Source: Candidatus Kuenenia stuttgartensis
Lineage (GTDB): Bacteria > Pseudomonadota > Alphaproteobacteria > SMXS01
Direction of reading: 5' to 3'
NCBI GenBank assembly: GCA_943329845.2
Contig: CALQFM020000041.1
Span: 1 to 36,226 of the forward strand
Length of the DNA stretch: 36,226 nucleotides
Shown here: piece after piece, positions 640-15,643 of the stretch
Layout of the letters: the number at the start of each line of letters is the position of its first letter
Position numbering within the stretch: the stretch's first letter is position 1
Notes under the pieces: generated by a model
Database searches by the model: none
Told to the model about the DNA's origin: nothing
What the model saw: only the letters and a program-made list of their open reading frames with translations
Program-made: the position numbers and the translations under genes

Positions 640-1257
640 ATGACCGATGCGCACCACCATAGCAATGCTACCTACGAGGACAGCCGAGCCTGCGACTGGC
701 CCGGCTGCGAGGAGCATGGCGGGCACCGGGCGCCCAAGGGCCGAGATCGGCTGGAGGACTATTACTGGTTCTGCATGGGCCACGCCCGGGAATACAACCG
801 CTCGTGGGACTACTTCGCCGGGATGAAGCAGAACGAGTTCGAGACCATGCTGCGCTCGACCGCCACATGGGACCGTCCCACCTGGCCGCTGGGCGCCCGC
901 AGCGGCGACCGGAACGCCTGGCCGTACTGGGCCGCGAAAGAAGCGGTCGGGGCCTTCATGGACGATCCCGACGTGGGCACGCGCCCCCTCCACGAGCCCG
1001 AGCGCATCGCCACCAGGTCCCGGCCGAAGCGCCAGGACAGGCAGGCGCTGGCGACGCTGGAACTGCCGGAGACAGCGTCGTTGCAAGACATCAAGAAACG
1101 CTTTAAGCAGTTGGTGAAGCGATACCATCCGGACGCCACGGGCCCGGCGAGCAAGCCCAGCCGCGCCATCGAAGAGCGTCTCCGTAATGTGATACAGGCC
1201 TATTCCCACCTTGTGGACAGCGGCCTGTACAAGGACAGTGTGGAAGAAGGTCGATGA
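640..1257 (+). CDS. J-domain (DnaJ-like) protein upstream of cobS
   Basis: This 205-residue protein has its J domain at the C-terminus (about 137-195), with the HPD motif at 163-165 in [10 protein letters not shown] domains recruit DnaK-type Hsp70 and stimulate its ATPase. The N-terminal 130 residues carry C18, C23, C45 and H48 (ACDWPGC and WFCMGH), a spacing that could bind a metal. This inverted layout is typical of the small alphaproteobacterial J proteins encoded beside cobS and unlike canonical DnaJ. The stop overlaps the cobS start by four bases (ATGA), so the two are translationally coupled. That suggests, but does not prove, a chaperone role for the cobaltochelatase. The ATG at 640 was preferred because upstream codons overlap bolA and show no similarity. 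Confidence 0.87.
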
Positions 1258-2270
1258 CGTCGGAAAACAACATGCCCGGGCATAACGGGTTGCCGGACAC
1301 CAAGGTCTCGGTTCGCGAAGTCTTCGGGATCGACAGCGACATAACGGTGCCGGCGTTCTCGAGCGGCAACGAGTACGTGCCGCCGCGGGACGAAGCCTAC
1401 CTGTTCGATCCGGACACCACGCGGGTGATCCTGGCCGGATTCGCCCATAACCGCCGCGTCATGGTGCAGGGCTATCACGGTACCGGCAAGTCGACCCATA
1501 TCGAGCAGGTCGCGGCGCGCCTGAACTGGCCCTGCGTCCGCGTCAATCTGGACAGCCACATCAGCCGAATCGACCTGATCGGCAAGGACGCCATCGTCCT
1601 GAAGGACGGCAAGCAGATCACCGAGTTCCGCGAGGGCATCCTGCCCTGGGCGATCCAGAACCCCGTGGCGCTGGTATTCGACGAGTACGACGCCGGCCGC
1701 CCGGACGTGATGTTCGTGATCCAGCGCGTGCTGGAAGTGGAAGGCCGCCTGACGCTGCTCGACCAGAACAAGGTGATCCACCCGCACCCGTCTTTCCGGC
1801 TGTTCTCGACCACCAACACCATCGGCCTGGGCGACACCACCGGCCTGTATCACGGCACGCAGCAGATCAACCAGGGTCAGATGGACCGCTGGAACATCGT
1901 CACCACGCTCAACTACCTGTCGCACGAGGCCGAGGTCGGCATCGTGCTGGCGAAGGCACCGACCTACAACACCGCCGAAGGCCGCGACACGGTCAACCGG
2001 ATGGTGCGCATCGCCGACCTGAGCCGCGCCGGCTTCATGGCCGGCGACCTGTCGACGGTCATGTCGCCCCGCACGGTGATCACCTGGGCGCAGAACAACG
2101 AGATCTTCAAGGACCTAGCCTTCTCGTTCCGCGTGTCGTTCCTCAACAAGTGCGACGAGCTGGAGCGCCCGCTGGTCGCCGAATACTACCAGCGGGTGTT
2201 CGGCGTCGAACTGCCCGAGTCCGCCGTGGCCCAGGCCGCCGGCGCGGCCAAGAAGGTGGTCAACGCCTAA
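1254..2270 (+). CDS. cobS: Cobaltochelatase subunit CobS (AAA+ ATPase)
   Basis: CobS is the AAA+ subunit of the aerobic cobaltochelatase CobNST, which inserts Co(II) into hydrogenobyrinic acid a,c-diamide during B12 synthesis. The 338-residue protein shows Walker [10 protein letters not shown] at about 73-81, Walker B ALVFDEYD at 139-146, and the family N-terminal stretch with [10 protein letters not shown] and [11 protein letters not shown]. CobS forms hexameric rings with CobT, analogous to the I and D subunits of magnesium chelatase. Its start lies inside the J-domain gene, and cobT begins 9 bp after its stop, so the three genes form one operon. CobN, the large catalytic subunit, is not in this window. 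Confidence 0.96.
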
Positions 2271-2279
2271 GGGGTCCCG

Positions 2280-4136
2280 ATGGCCGCTCCCGAAAGCCCC
2301 ATAGAGCCGTTCAAGCGGGCCGTCGTCGGCGCGGCGCGGGCCATATCCGAGGACCGCGAGCTGGACCTGACGTTCAGCGCCCAGAACACCCCGGGTCCCG
2401 GCCGCCTGCCGACGCCGTCCCGCGACCTGACCGCGCGCGACGCGGCGCTGGTGCGCGGCGCGGCCGACGCCATCGCCCTGCGCATCAAGCACCACGACCG
2501 CAATGTCCATTCGGCGCTCCTGCCCGTCGGCAGCACGGCGCGCGGCATCTTCGACGCCGCCGAGCAGGCCCGCATCGAGGCGATCGGCGCCAAGACCATG
2601 GACGGCGTCGCCATGAACCTGGATGCCGCGCTGGCCGAGCGCTCGCGGATCAAGGGCTACGACCAGATCAGGACCACCGACGACGTGCCGCTGGCCGACG
2701 TGGTCGGCTTCATGGTGCGCGAGCGGCTGACCGGCGCGGTGCCGCCGGAAGGCGCGCGCGAGATGGTCGACCTGCTGCGCAGCATGATCGAGGCCAAGGC
2801 CGGCAAGGACCTGGACGAGCTCGACGGCACGGTCGCGGACCAGAAGCGTTTCGCCCGCATCACCCGCCAGATCATCGCCGACCTGGACCTGGGCGACGAA
2901 CTGGGCGACGACCGGGAGCAGGACGCCGAGGGCGAGGAGCAGACCGAGTCCCAGCAGATGCAGAAGGACGGGGACGGCGACAACTCCGAAGATTCGAGCC
3001 CCGACGGCAAGTCCGTGTCCGACGTGGAGATGCGCGAGCAGCTCACCGACGACGAATCGCTGGAGACGGTCACCATCGAGACCGAACAGCAGATGGACGG
3101 CGAGCAGGGCGACCAGGAGAACCAGGGCGAGGCGCCCTACCGTCCCGAGCACGGCCGCAACGACAAGCGCGACCGCGCCTACACCACCTTCACCGAGGAA
3201 TTCGACGAGGTCATCTCCGCCGAGGAGCTGGCCGACCCCGAGGAGCTGCACCGCCTGCGCACCCAGCTGGACCGCCAGCTCGACGCGCTGCAGGGGGCGG
3301 TCGCCAAGCTCGCCAACCGGCTGCAGCGCCGGCTGATGGCGCAGCAGAACCGCTCGTGGGAGTTCGACATCGAGGAAGGCATGCTCGATACGTCGCGGCT
3401 GACCCGCATCATCATCGATCCGTACTATCCGCTGTCGTTCAAGCGCGAGAAGGATACCGACTTCCGCGATACGGTGGTGACGCTGCTGCTCGACAATTCG
3501 GGTTCCATGCGTGGCCGCCCGATCACCATCGCGGCGATTTGCGCCGACATCCTGGCGCGCACCCTGGAGCGCTGCCACGTCAAGGTCGAGATCCTGGGTT
3601 TCACCACCCGCGCATGGAAGGGCGGCCAGTCGCGCGAGAAGTGGCTGGCGAACGGCAAGCCCGCCAATCCGGGCCGCCTCAACGACCTGCGCCACGTGGT
3701 GTACAAGAACGCCGACGCGCCGTGGCGCCGGGCGCGCAAGAATCTGGGCCTGATGCTGAAGGAAGGCCTGCTGAAGGAGAACATCGACGGCGAGGCGCTG
3801 CTGTGGGCGCATAACCGCCTGATGGCGCGCTCGGAGAACCGCCGTGTACTGATGGTGATTTCCGACGGCGCACCGGTCGATGACTGCACCCTGTCGGCCA
3901 ACCCGGCCAACTACCTGGAGCAGCACCTGCGCCACGTGGTGAACTGGATCGAGACCAAGTCGCCGGTGGAACTGATCGCCATCGGCATCGGCCATGATGT
4001 GACCCGCTATTACAAGCGCGCCGTCACCATCACCGACGCCGAGCAGCTGGGCGGCGCCATGACCGACCAGCTCGCCTCGCTGTTCGAGGAAGACAGCAAG
4101 CGCCCGAAGGACAAGGCCAAGCGCCGCGCGGCGTAG
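2280..4136 (+). CDS. cobT: Cobaltochelatase subunit CobT (VWA domain)
   Basis: CobT is the MIDAS-containing partner of CobS in the cobaltochelatase. The 618-residue length is normal for the family. The N-terminal region (1-199) is followed by a strongly acidic, low-complexity linker (about 200-290, rich in D, E and Q), then [18 protein letters not shown] near 299, and a C-terminal VWA domain whose MIDAS motif is DNSGS with D405, S407 and S409. Further family motifs are [23 protein letters not shown] and [10 protein letters not shown]. It sits directly after cobS and is probably co-translated. A shorter paralogue lacking the first 300 residues lies at 14618-15643. Confidence 0.96.
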
Positions 4137-13080: not shown

Positions 13081-14457
13081 TCAGGCGTTGAGGTACTGAT
13101 CGAGCGTCTTGTGCAGCCGCCGGATGCGGATTTCCTGGTAGTTGCCAAGGGTCTGGGTCCGCTTGCGGCCGGCTTTGAAGCCCTTCTGCTGCATCTCCAG
13201 GTTGCCGGTATCCTGGTCGTAGACATGTCCGAGGAACGGACCGATGCCGGGCACCGACTCATAGGAGGTGCCGATGTCGATCTTGTAGGGCTCGGGTGCC
13301 TCGGGCCGCTCCTGGCCGGGCGCCAGCTCCTCGAGGAACAGCAGGTCGAAGATGGCGCTGTCCGGATCCATGCCGTTGGGCCGGAACCGGTAGACCATGG
13401 GCAGCGACACGCCGGGGAACAGGAACATGTTGGGGAACAGATGATACTCGATTGAATCCAGCATCTCGCTGTCCGAGCGCGTCGACAGGTCGATGCCCCG
13501 GTCCTCGCCCAGGCTCTTGCGGAAATAGGATGCGAGGAACGCGCGCGCGGTCATGCCGTCCGGCACCTTGGTGCCGGCGGGCAGCATGCCCATGGTGTCG
13601 AGCAGTTCCTGCTGTGTCTGCGGCTTGGTCCAGCTCGGGTCCGGGAAACCGAAGGTGTGGAAGAACCGGGTCACCCGCTCGCTGAAGATGTCGTACTGGG
13701 CGTTGAGGTTGGACGAGAACGGCATGGCGTGATGATGGGTCTCAAGGCTGTGATAGGCCTCGACGAATGCTTCCTGCGACGCCTTCCAGTTGGCCGGCAG
13801 GATCTTCTGGATGTGCAGCCGGACATAGCGGTTATCGAGCGGCCAGTTGGCGAAGTGCTCCATCAGCGGCCCGAGATACTCCTCGAGCGGCATGGCATTC
13901 TCGTCCATGTTGACGAAATAGAAGCCGCCCCATTTGGCGATCTTCACCTCGGGCAGCCTGAACTCCTCGTCGGTCACCTTCGGGAAATCCCAGCGGCAGG
14001 GGATTTCCTTCAGGCTGCCGTCCAGGTTCCAGGTCCAGCCATGGAACGGGCAACGGAAGTTCTGCACGCTGCCGGTCGAGTCGGACGGGCGCAGCTGGGT
14101 GCCGCGGTGCAGGCAGGAATTGACATAGGCCTTCACCTCATCCGGCGCGGCGCGCACGACGACGATCGAATACGGTCCGACGTCGTAGGTGTAGTAGTCG
14201 CCCACTTCCGGAATGTGCTCGTCGCGGCAGGCCCATTGCCACGTCTTGTTCCACATCTTCGTCATCTCGAGGTCGAAGAACTCCTTCGAGGTATAGCGGT
14301 CGAACGGGATGTCCTCGTCGCCCATGTAGACGTAATTCTCGGCCAGCAGCTGGGCCGGCAGCTCCCAGCCATCCGACAGCACCAGATCCCTGGTGCTCGG
14401 GCCCGGGCAGCGGGCCTCGCCCGGCTTCATGTTCGGCTGCGGATCGTAGATGTTCAT
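13081..14457 (-). CDS. Rieske [2Fe-2S] aromatic-ring-hydroxylating oxygenase, alpha subunit
   Basis: The 458-residue protein has the two domains of a ring-hydroxylating oxygenase alpha subunit. The Rieske ligands are CLHRG and CPFHGWTW (C-X-H and C-X2-H). The catalytic domain carries EAFVEAYHSLETHHH, in which the mononuclear iron histidines are expected. These enzymes use electrons from a reductase/ferredoxin to add oxygen to, or demethylate, an aromatic or other hydrophobic substrate. No beta subunit, ferredoxin or reductase gene is adjacent, so electrons come from elsewhere. It is divergent from the CobT-like gene with a 160-bp gap and ends in a strong terminator. The substrate is unknown. 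Confidence 0.93.
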   Translation of the reverse strand: MNIYDPQPNMKPGEARCPGPSTRDLVLSDGWELPAQLLAENYVYMGDEDIPFDRYTSKEFFDLEMTKMWNKTWQWACRDEHIPEVGDYYTYDVGPYSIVVVRAAPDEVKAYVNSCLHRGTQLRPSDSTGSVQNFRCPFHGWTWNLDGSLKEIPCRWDFPKVTDEEFRLPEVKIAKWGGFYFVNMDENAMPLEEYLGPLMEHFANWPLDNRYVRLHIQKILPANWKASQEAFVEAYHSLETHHHAMPFSSNLNAQYDIFSERVTRFFHTFGFPDPSWTKPQTQQELLDTMGMLPAGTKVPDGMTARAFLASYFRKSLGEDRGIDLSTRSDSEMLDSIEYHLFPNMFLFPGVSLPMVYRFRPNGMDPDSAIFDLLFLEELAPGQERPEAPEPYKIDIGTSYESVPGIGPFLGHVYDQDTGNLEMQQKGFKAGRKRTQTLGNYQEIRIRRLHKTLDQYLNA

Positions 14458-14617: not shown

Positions 14618-15643
14618 ATGGACATGGCGGCCACGACCAAGGAGCTGGTGTTTCTGGGCACCATCGCCCTGATCGGGCTGGTCACGCTGTGGGATTATCG
14701 CAACCGCCGCCGCCGCCAACGCGTGAACGAGCCGGCCGCGGACTCTCCGGATACCGAGCCGTACAAGGTCTATACGCGCGACTACGATCTCGTCCTGCCT
14801 GCCGAGGAGGTTTCCGAGCGCCTGCCCGAAGCCAGCGACGACGCGTTCAACGGCAAGTCCGACCGGGGCGGCAAGGGCTGGCGGCAACGGGTCGAGTCGG
14901 CCAAGCGCTGGATGGCCGAGCATCCCCAGGCCATGGACATGGCGCAGCGTTTCGCGTCGGCGCTCCGGGCCGGCGGAATCGCCAGTCCGTCGGACGTTGC
15001 GATCACGCTGCTGATAGACCAGTCGGGTTCCATGCGCGGCGATCCCATGTCGGCAGCCTATGCCGCCATCGCCGGAGTGGAGTCGGCGATCAGCCGCGCC
15101 GGCGCGCGCATCGAAATCCTCGGCTTCTCGACGGCGGGATGGAATGGCGGTTTTACCCGCAAGAAGTGGCTGAAAGACGGACGGCCGCCGCGGCCCGGCC
15201 GGCTGTGCGCATTGCTGCACATCATCTACAAGACCCACGGCCAGCCCGAATGGGCGCGGGCGTCGCGCGAGGCCATGCTGCACCCTGACATCCTGCGGGA
15301 GAACATCGACGGCGAGGCGCTGGAGTGGGCTGCCGGCCGGCTGCGGGACATCGATGCGGCGACCAGGGTGTTATTGGTAATCTCCGACGGCGCCGCGGCG
15401 GACGACACCACCCTGATGCACAACGGGCCGGCCTATCTGGAGCGCCACCTGCGGAAGACCATCGCAGGGATCGAGGCGGAAGGCGTTATCCGGCTGGGCG
15501 GCCTGGGCGTGCGCCACGACGTGAGCCGTTATTTCCGACACAGCCGCAACGCCGGGCTGGAAAACCTGCCCGAGGACCTGCTCGCGCTGACGATGGACGT
15601 CGTCGCCGGAAAGCCGGCGCGGCACGAAACCCAGGCCGCCTGA
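14618..15643 (+). CDS. Membrane-anchored CobT-like VWA protein
   Basis: This 341-residue protein is homologous to the C-terminal half of CobT but lacks its first 300 residues and acidic linker. Instead it begins with one membrane helix (about 9-26, ELVFLGTIALIGLVTLW) followed by a positive stretch RNRRRRQR, which suggests the rest is cytoplasmic. Shared with CobT are the YTRDYDLVLPAEE block, the MIDAS motif DQSGS (D134, S136, S138), [35 protein letters not shown] and GVRHDVSRYF. The start at 14618 follows GAGGAG by about seven bases. Its role is unknown. It may be a partner of CobS or another MoxR-like AAA+ ATPase, but this is inference; no such ATPase is adjacent. Confidence 0.88.
   Translation: MDMAATTKELVFLGTIALIGLVTLWDYRNRRRRQRVNEPAADSPDTEPYKVYTRDYDLVLPAEEVSERLPEASDDAFNGKSDRGGKGWRQRVESAKRWMAEHPQAMDMAQRFASALRAGGIASPSDVAITLLIDQSGSMRGDPMSAAYAAIAGVESAISRAGARIEILGFSTAGWNGGFTRKKWLKDGRPPRPGRLCALLHIIYKTHGQPEWARASREAMLHPDILRENIDGEALEWAAGRLRDIDAATRVLLVISDGAAADDTTLMHNGPAYLERHLRKTIAGIEAEGVIRLGGLGVRHDVSRYFRHSRNAGLENLPEDLLALTMDVVAGKPARHETQAA

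Follow-up and report, generated by a model that had tools for sequence, protein, structure and literature searches.

An orphan CobT_C protein with a predicted membrane anchor: a candidate co-chaperone for the CobS ring

Many VWA proteins work without an AAA+ motor. NorD, of the NorQ/NorD pair, does not; it belongs with CbbO and ViaA to the MoxR-associated VWA co-chaperones, and it acts on a membrane enzyme. Its VWA finger is modelled through the pore of the MoxR ring, and the MIDAS, on top, binds the enzyme (PMC9976466). The MIDAS is needed for action on the target and not for binding of the ATPase, the variable N-terminal part is proposed to set specificity, and NorD reduces the ATPase activity of its partner NorQ; VWAs without a motor have no finger (PMC9976466). 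CobT (TIGR01651) joins an N-terminal domain (PF06213) to a CobT_C VWA domain (PF11775) with a MIDAS, a finger region and the motif Y-x-x-[FY]-T-x-x-[FY]-D. Phages and plasmids encode long CobT-like proteins next to CobS-like ATPases (phrog_1576, phrog_17276), with a CobT_C-type VWA and a diverged finger. Finally, in the MoxR-vWA ternary conflict systems the vWA co-chaperones have swapped domains, TIR and TM included, and each system comes with a MoxR and a third core protein of its own (PMC7159879).

How does the locus analysed here compare with these systems? The window (the whole stretch of DNA that was analysed, 36,226 nucleotides) contains cobS, cobT and, further along, a gene in which an earlier sequence-only reading had recognized a CobT_C VWA domain. 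The features to which we refer are as follows.

1254 to 2270, forward strand: cobS, AAA+ ATPase, the putative motor (TIGR01650, 605 bits against a cut-off of 558.55)
2280 to 4136, forward strand: cobT, full length (TIGR01651, 870 bits against a cut-off of 759)
13081 to 14457, reverse strand: Rieske ring-hydroxylating oxygenase, divergent neighbour, a marker of the insertion site (profile match, synteny)
14618 to 15643, forward strand: orphan CobT_C VWA gene, membrane-anchored, 341 aa (ORF, PF11775, BLASTP, orthologues, dN/dS)
14645 to 14695, forward strand: predicted single membrane helix, residues about 10–26, then RNRRRRQR (hydropathy and AlphaFold2; predicted topology)
14762 to 14809, forward strand: CobT-like motif YKVYTRDYDLVLPAEE, residues 49–64 (BLASTP, alignments)
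14993 to 15544, forward strand: CobT_C VWA domain, residues about 126–309 (PF11775; NorD VWA match, Z 19.7)
15017 to 15031, forward strand: MIDAS DxSxS (D134, S136, S138), with a second aspartate at D257 (invariant in alignments)
15116 to 15319, forward strand: CobT-type finger or insert, residues 167–234, a putative AAA+ docking element (CobT consensus retention; role of the NorD finger, PMC9976466)
15722 to 16774, forward strand: LLM-class monooxygenase, downstream (beside the orphan gene in three species; also present without it in G006)

The ATG of the orphan gene is preceded by gaggagagactg, a good ribosome-binding sequence. Since dN/dS across three species is about 0.23–0.27, indicative of purifying selection, the gene is not a chance reading frame. 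Its product matches PF11775 with E 6.4e-43 (147 bits, gathering cut-off 21), and the domain call of the sequence-only reading stands, as does its statement that the MIDAS serines and aspartate are intact: D134-x-S136-x-S138, T172 and D257 are all present, and invariant across the related proteins aligned. The HDVxRY motif takes the form HDVSRY (residues 300–305). The core of the N-terminal helix is LVFLGTIALIGLVTLW (residues about 10–25), the most hydrophobic stretch of the protein. Its best 19-residue Kyte–Doolittle mean is 1.61, against 1.95 in the orthologue of 84% identity and a maximum of 0.99 in CobT; the score is borderline in two of the three species. AlphaFold2 predicts a helix at residues 3–37. 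By the positive-inside rule, the VWA domain would be cytoplasmic.

Is this protein a CobT? In BLASTP the CobT of the window aligns from its residue 301 onwards, with 36% identity across 282 residues (E 7e-52). The replacement of the first 300 or so residues of CobT by one membrane helix, as had been proposed, is thus borne out. PF06213 was not found in the orphan protein; the window CobT has both PF06213 and PF11775. Against the CobT equivalog model TIGR01651 the protein reaches 196.4 bits, well under the cut-off of 759, and covers profile positions 392–575 only. The original claim of an alignment running without interruption from the motif to HDVxRY was too generous. The motif, the VWA domain and HDVSRY do align, but the stretch between motif and VWA (62 residues, 63–124) keeps just 1 of 26 CobT-invariant positions, which limits the resemblance to CobT to the short motif and the VWA. 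An arginine of the finger region that is invariant in CobT is leucine in the window protein (R200L), a state shared by 10 of 14 orphan rows counted. In short, the orphan protein shares the CobT_C module and motif with CobT, but a membrane helix stands in place of the N-terminal half and of most of the linker; and its gene, unlike cobT, does not adjoin cobS and is independent of cobN.

Where does the gene occur? Overlapping samples of 96, 387 and 397 genomes (surroundings, class and phylum), together with a peptide-pattern scan of genome contigs that finds close relatives only, yielded orthologues at 93% and 84% identity in just two further species, both from the genus of the window genome. All three carriers have the gene between the same Rieske oxygenase (reverse strand) and LLM monooxygenase (forward strand), 11 kb from cobST. 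In relatives within the genus that lack it, the site differs: G005 has a TonB receptor immediately after the Rieske gene, G003 has other genes there, and G006 shows the order Rieske–LLM–TonB, its VWA site being taken up by a short unrelated ORF, with no remnant of the VWA gene. These layouts indicate that the orphan gene was inserted or lost separately, and that the proximity of cobST may be coincidence. They also dispose of a fixed two-gene cassette of VWA and LLM, as G006 has the LLM gene without the VWA and G005 neither. The short ORF of G006 (L166:3441-4160) resembles NTF2/SnoaL by eye, and the Rieske gene is duplicated in that genome. The base composition of the orphan gene is ordinary (GC 68% against 66%), which removes foreign composition as a sign of origin. 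The earlier remark that no ATPase is adjacent holds locally; cobS, the nearest AAA+ gene among those recognized, is nevertheless on the same contig, 12.3 kb away. As for the conserved linkage to one AAA+ gene that had been anticipated, nothing was found beyond the synteny common to the one genus.

The window gene is one of a sparse, previously unnamed family of stand-alone CobT ends with different front parts. Such orphan CobT_C genes were found on alphaproteobacterial chromosomes, plasmids and prophages, and their N-termini comprise a TM helix, a TIR domain, a short helix or a Cys-rich domain. The combination of TM helix and CobT_C that had been suggested for searching was recovered in three species of the window's genus; among the orphan proteins examined the membrane helix was seen there alone, the related proteins having other N-termini. 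A tblastn search of plasmids found solitary short genes in Pararhizobium (307 aa, L053) and R. leguminosarum (320 aa, L051), and on an Agrobacterium plasmid a TIR–CobT_C fusion of 490 aa (L052:3338-4810; TIR_2 E 8e-8, CobT_C E 1e-49) with a ThsB-like TIR gene and one of GmrSD type next to it. Where a genome had two CobT_C matches, the search yielded two intact genes from one genus (L087, 337 aa; L086, 341 aa) and L092, which is frameshifted. Six of 394 Rhizobiaceae genomes had two matches, and the three checked were orphan genes (L133, L134, L165); that of genome G957 (L165:7725-9005, 426 aa) has about 120 extra C-terminal residues. Viral contigs supplied a 286-aa gene between prophage tail genes on the opposite strand (L114:4986-5846), which is a cargo-gene position, another TIR fusion, at a prophage boundary (L113:3996-5816; TIR, CobT motif and CobT_C VWA), a 577-aa protein in which a Cys-rich region that no Pfam domain matches precedes CobT_C (L112:3927-5660), and a bare 280-aa CobT_C (L111). 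Two frameshifted genes, L092:1504-2461 (G375) and L096:7950-8860 (a Sinorhizobium fredii plasmid), show that decaying copies exist.

In the stretches read, none of the orphan CobT_C genes had a CobS- or MoxR-like neighbour; at L111 an AAA-type ATPase, its class unassigned, lies 0.9 kb downstream. Every carrier genome examined has a full-length CobT, so that the gene is not confined to genomes devoid of CobS or MoxR ATPases, an outcome that would have counted against the earlier proposal. In each neighbourhood read, CobS adjoined CobT, and we assumed the same of the remaining carriers. High amphipathic-helix scores were found for 5 of 6 short rhizobial-type N-termini, a subset chosen post hoc, against 21% of controls, a hint that an N-terminal amphipathic membrane helix may be general among the orphan proteins. 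How is the family related to CobT? In a tree of 24 rows, eight short non-TIR orphan proteins stand apart, on long branches, from a group formed by CobT together with the single TIR fusion (94/93). Placing all orphan rows in one clade was not rejected (p-AU 0.363), and a larger tree gave no resolution. Recent duplication of the local cobT in place was considered and set aside (46% to its own CobT, against up to 52% to other alphaproteobacterial CobTs). A tree joining the window group with the CobTs of its host family is 9.6 log-units worse yet not rejected (p-AU 0.205), which makes such a duplication unlikely. In the papers searched no mention of PF11775 was found, and the sole paper combining CobT, TIR domain and vWA did so through Salmonella cobT, in its references.

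If the protein is a co-chaperone, which motor does it serve? We delimited the finger region (residues 167–234) from the alignment and scored it against the alphaproteobacterial CobT consensus, with the rest of the VWA as comparison. Retention is higher in the finger than in the rest of the VWA in all 12 orphan CobT_C proteins measured (ratios 1.17–1.61); in three plasmid or phage CobT-like proteins encoded beside their own CobS/MoxR-type ATPase it is lower (0.63–0.71). Taken by itself, the window protein shows no significant difference, with 37/64 against 53/110 (0.58 against 0.48; p 0.27). The AlphaFold2 model has a pLDDT of 74, with residues 175–179 of the finger region under 50. Its best structural match (Foldseek, VIA-align) is the NorD VWA bound to NorQ (Z 19.7 over 218 residues, rmsd 2.8); the next unrelated VWAs give Z about 15–16, and integrin-type domains about 15 with some 165 residues aligned. 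By the model the two proteins probably share a MoxR-type VWA fold with an extra insert, and both have a MIDAS and a variable N-terminal part. On the other hand, their sequence identity is only 17%, and NorD, a soluble protein, is paired with norQ. Like the known MoxR-associated co-chaperones, then, the orphan protein has a VWA with an intact MIDAS, but its gene is not next to that of an AAA+ partner. Neither does it resemble the phage CobST pairs, being short, with no adjacent CobS-like gene and no phage-type finger. Among the AAA_5 matches of the genome that were read, the only ones recognized as MoxR-type ATPases are CobS and a CoxD-like protein (contig C72, L064), and the latter adjoins its own CoxE-type VWA gene. 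Resident CobS is the likeliest engine, because the CobT finger is kept, the modelled fold is NorD-like, CobT is present in the carriers examined and the other recognized MoxR has a VWA of its own. Since CobT and CobS occur in most of the class, their co-occurrence with the orphan gene says little.

The best reading of the gene is that it encodes a real, conserved, membrane-anchored CobT_C co-chaperone of the MoxR-VWA kind. Judging from the sequence and structure comparisons, we lean towards a tethered co-chaperone that docks on the resident CobS ring and remodels a membrane target. The helix, oriented N-out/C-in, would hold the VWA domain in the cytoplasm, and the finger would enter the pore of the hexameric CobS ring. 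Through its metal, the MIDAS would engage an acidic residue on some membrane-associated target, which ATP hydrolysis by CobS would then remodel. In this scheme the TM helix would substitute for the N-terminal half of CobT in setting both location and target. No membrane target linked to the orphan gene was found, which weighs against this scheme, as do R200L in the finger region, the loss of the CobT linker and the borderline hydropathy of the helix. The remodelling by CobS or a MoxR ATPase that the sequence-only reading had envisaged is supported in part: the CobT-type finger, the NorD-like modelled fold and the presence of CobT in every carrier examined point that way, though conserved AAA+ linkage did not materialize.

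Might the protein instead restrain the motor? An orphan VWA could occupy the CobS ring, divert it from CobT or hold it at the membrane, and so tune or block CobST. Retention of the finger without the CobT N-terminal half would suit such a decoy, as would the family's sparse and mobile distribution, prophage-like contigs included, and the lowering of NorQ ATPase activity by NorD (PMC9976466). A pure decoy, however, would not need a MIDAS, and the MIDAS is invariant in all aligned orphan proteins; we think this role rather unlikely.

Less probable still is that the partner is not CobS but another ATPase of the MoxR clade, namely the CoxD-like one, or that there is no ATPase at all and the protein is a membrane adhesion module, as the motorless way of working of many VWA proteins would allow. 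The lack of an adjacent ATPase gene and the presence of a second MoxR-type ATPase in the genome agree with one or other version. But the CoxD-like ATPase already has its CoxE-type partner next door and the orphan finger is of the CobT type, while motorless VWAs lack a finger (PMC9976466) and the model's match to the NorD VWA is longer than its match to integrins.

Could the gene be a domesticated prophage or plasmid conflict gene, working with CobS as an effector or immunity module, as the TIR–CobT_C fusions may do? Those fusions (L052 on a plasmid, L113 on a viral contig) have the same motif and CobT_C module without the CobT N-terminal half, and likewise no CobS-like neighbour was seen. TIR-vWA fusions are known from the MoxR-vWA conflict systems (PMC7159879), whose domain swapping the orphan family shares, and one orphan gene sits among prophage tail genes (L114). 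Unlike those systems, the orphan CobT_C genes do not encode a MoxR or a third core protein of their own. Yet the window protein carries a membrane helix where the fusions have TIR and is without an effector domain; no PADLOC family matched it at E 0.001; its gene has no mobile-element or defence neighbours and its GC content is unremarkable; and the TIR fusion in the tree groups with CobT, not with the short orphan proteins. We consider a conflict role very unlikely.

What of cobalamin? Co-occurrence with cobN, proposed earlier as a check, failed: cobN (PF02514) is absent from the carriers G000 and G001, both of which have missing parts, and present in the third, G002, and also in G003, a relative without the orphan gene, so a link between the two genes was discarded. 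An accessory or alternative subunit of the aerobic cobaltochelatase of vitamin B12 synthesis, suggested by the CobT family domain and by cobS and cobT on the same contig, is hardly credible when CobN is missing from two of three carriers and present in relatives without the gene. We conclude that the orphan protein is not a CobT and is not tied to B12 synthesis. CobN was found in 4 of the 17 CobT-bearing genomes of the sample near the window; the other 13, the window genome included, are without it. In these 13, which are among genomes G000–G020, cobS and cobT, at 1254 to 4136 in the window, are kept nonetheless. For Caulobacter, a fitness benefit of cobT under copper stress is cited, and the gene was an exception in the EDTA screen (PMC12004947).

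Since the same module recurs with other N-termini in other bacteria and in prophages, it would seem to serve CobS as a plug-in adaptor. We suggest tentatively, as a possibility short of a probability, that the orphan CobT_C proteins at large are such adaptors, commandeering the conserved CobS ring of the host for a new job set by the swapped N-terminus: targeting to the membrane in the window protein and, on plasmids and prophages, TIR effectors among other domains. If this is true, one AAA+ ring would serve several adaptors encoded elsewhere, unlike the usual dedicated MoxR-VWA gene pair, and CobS would be a shared, general-purpose motor, also in the many alphaproteobacteria that have CobS and CobT but no CobN. 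The role of CobS and CobT in such genomes would become testable through the front parts of the orphan CobT ends.
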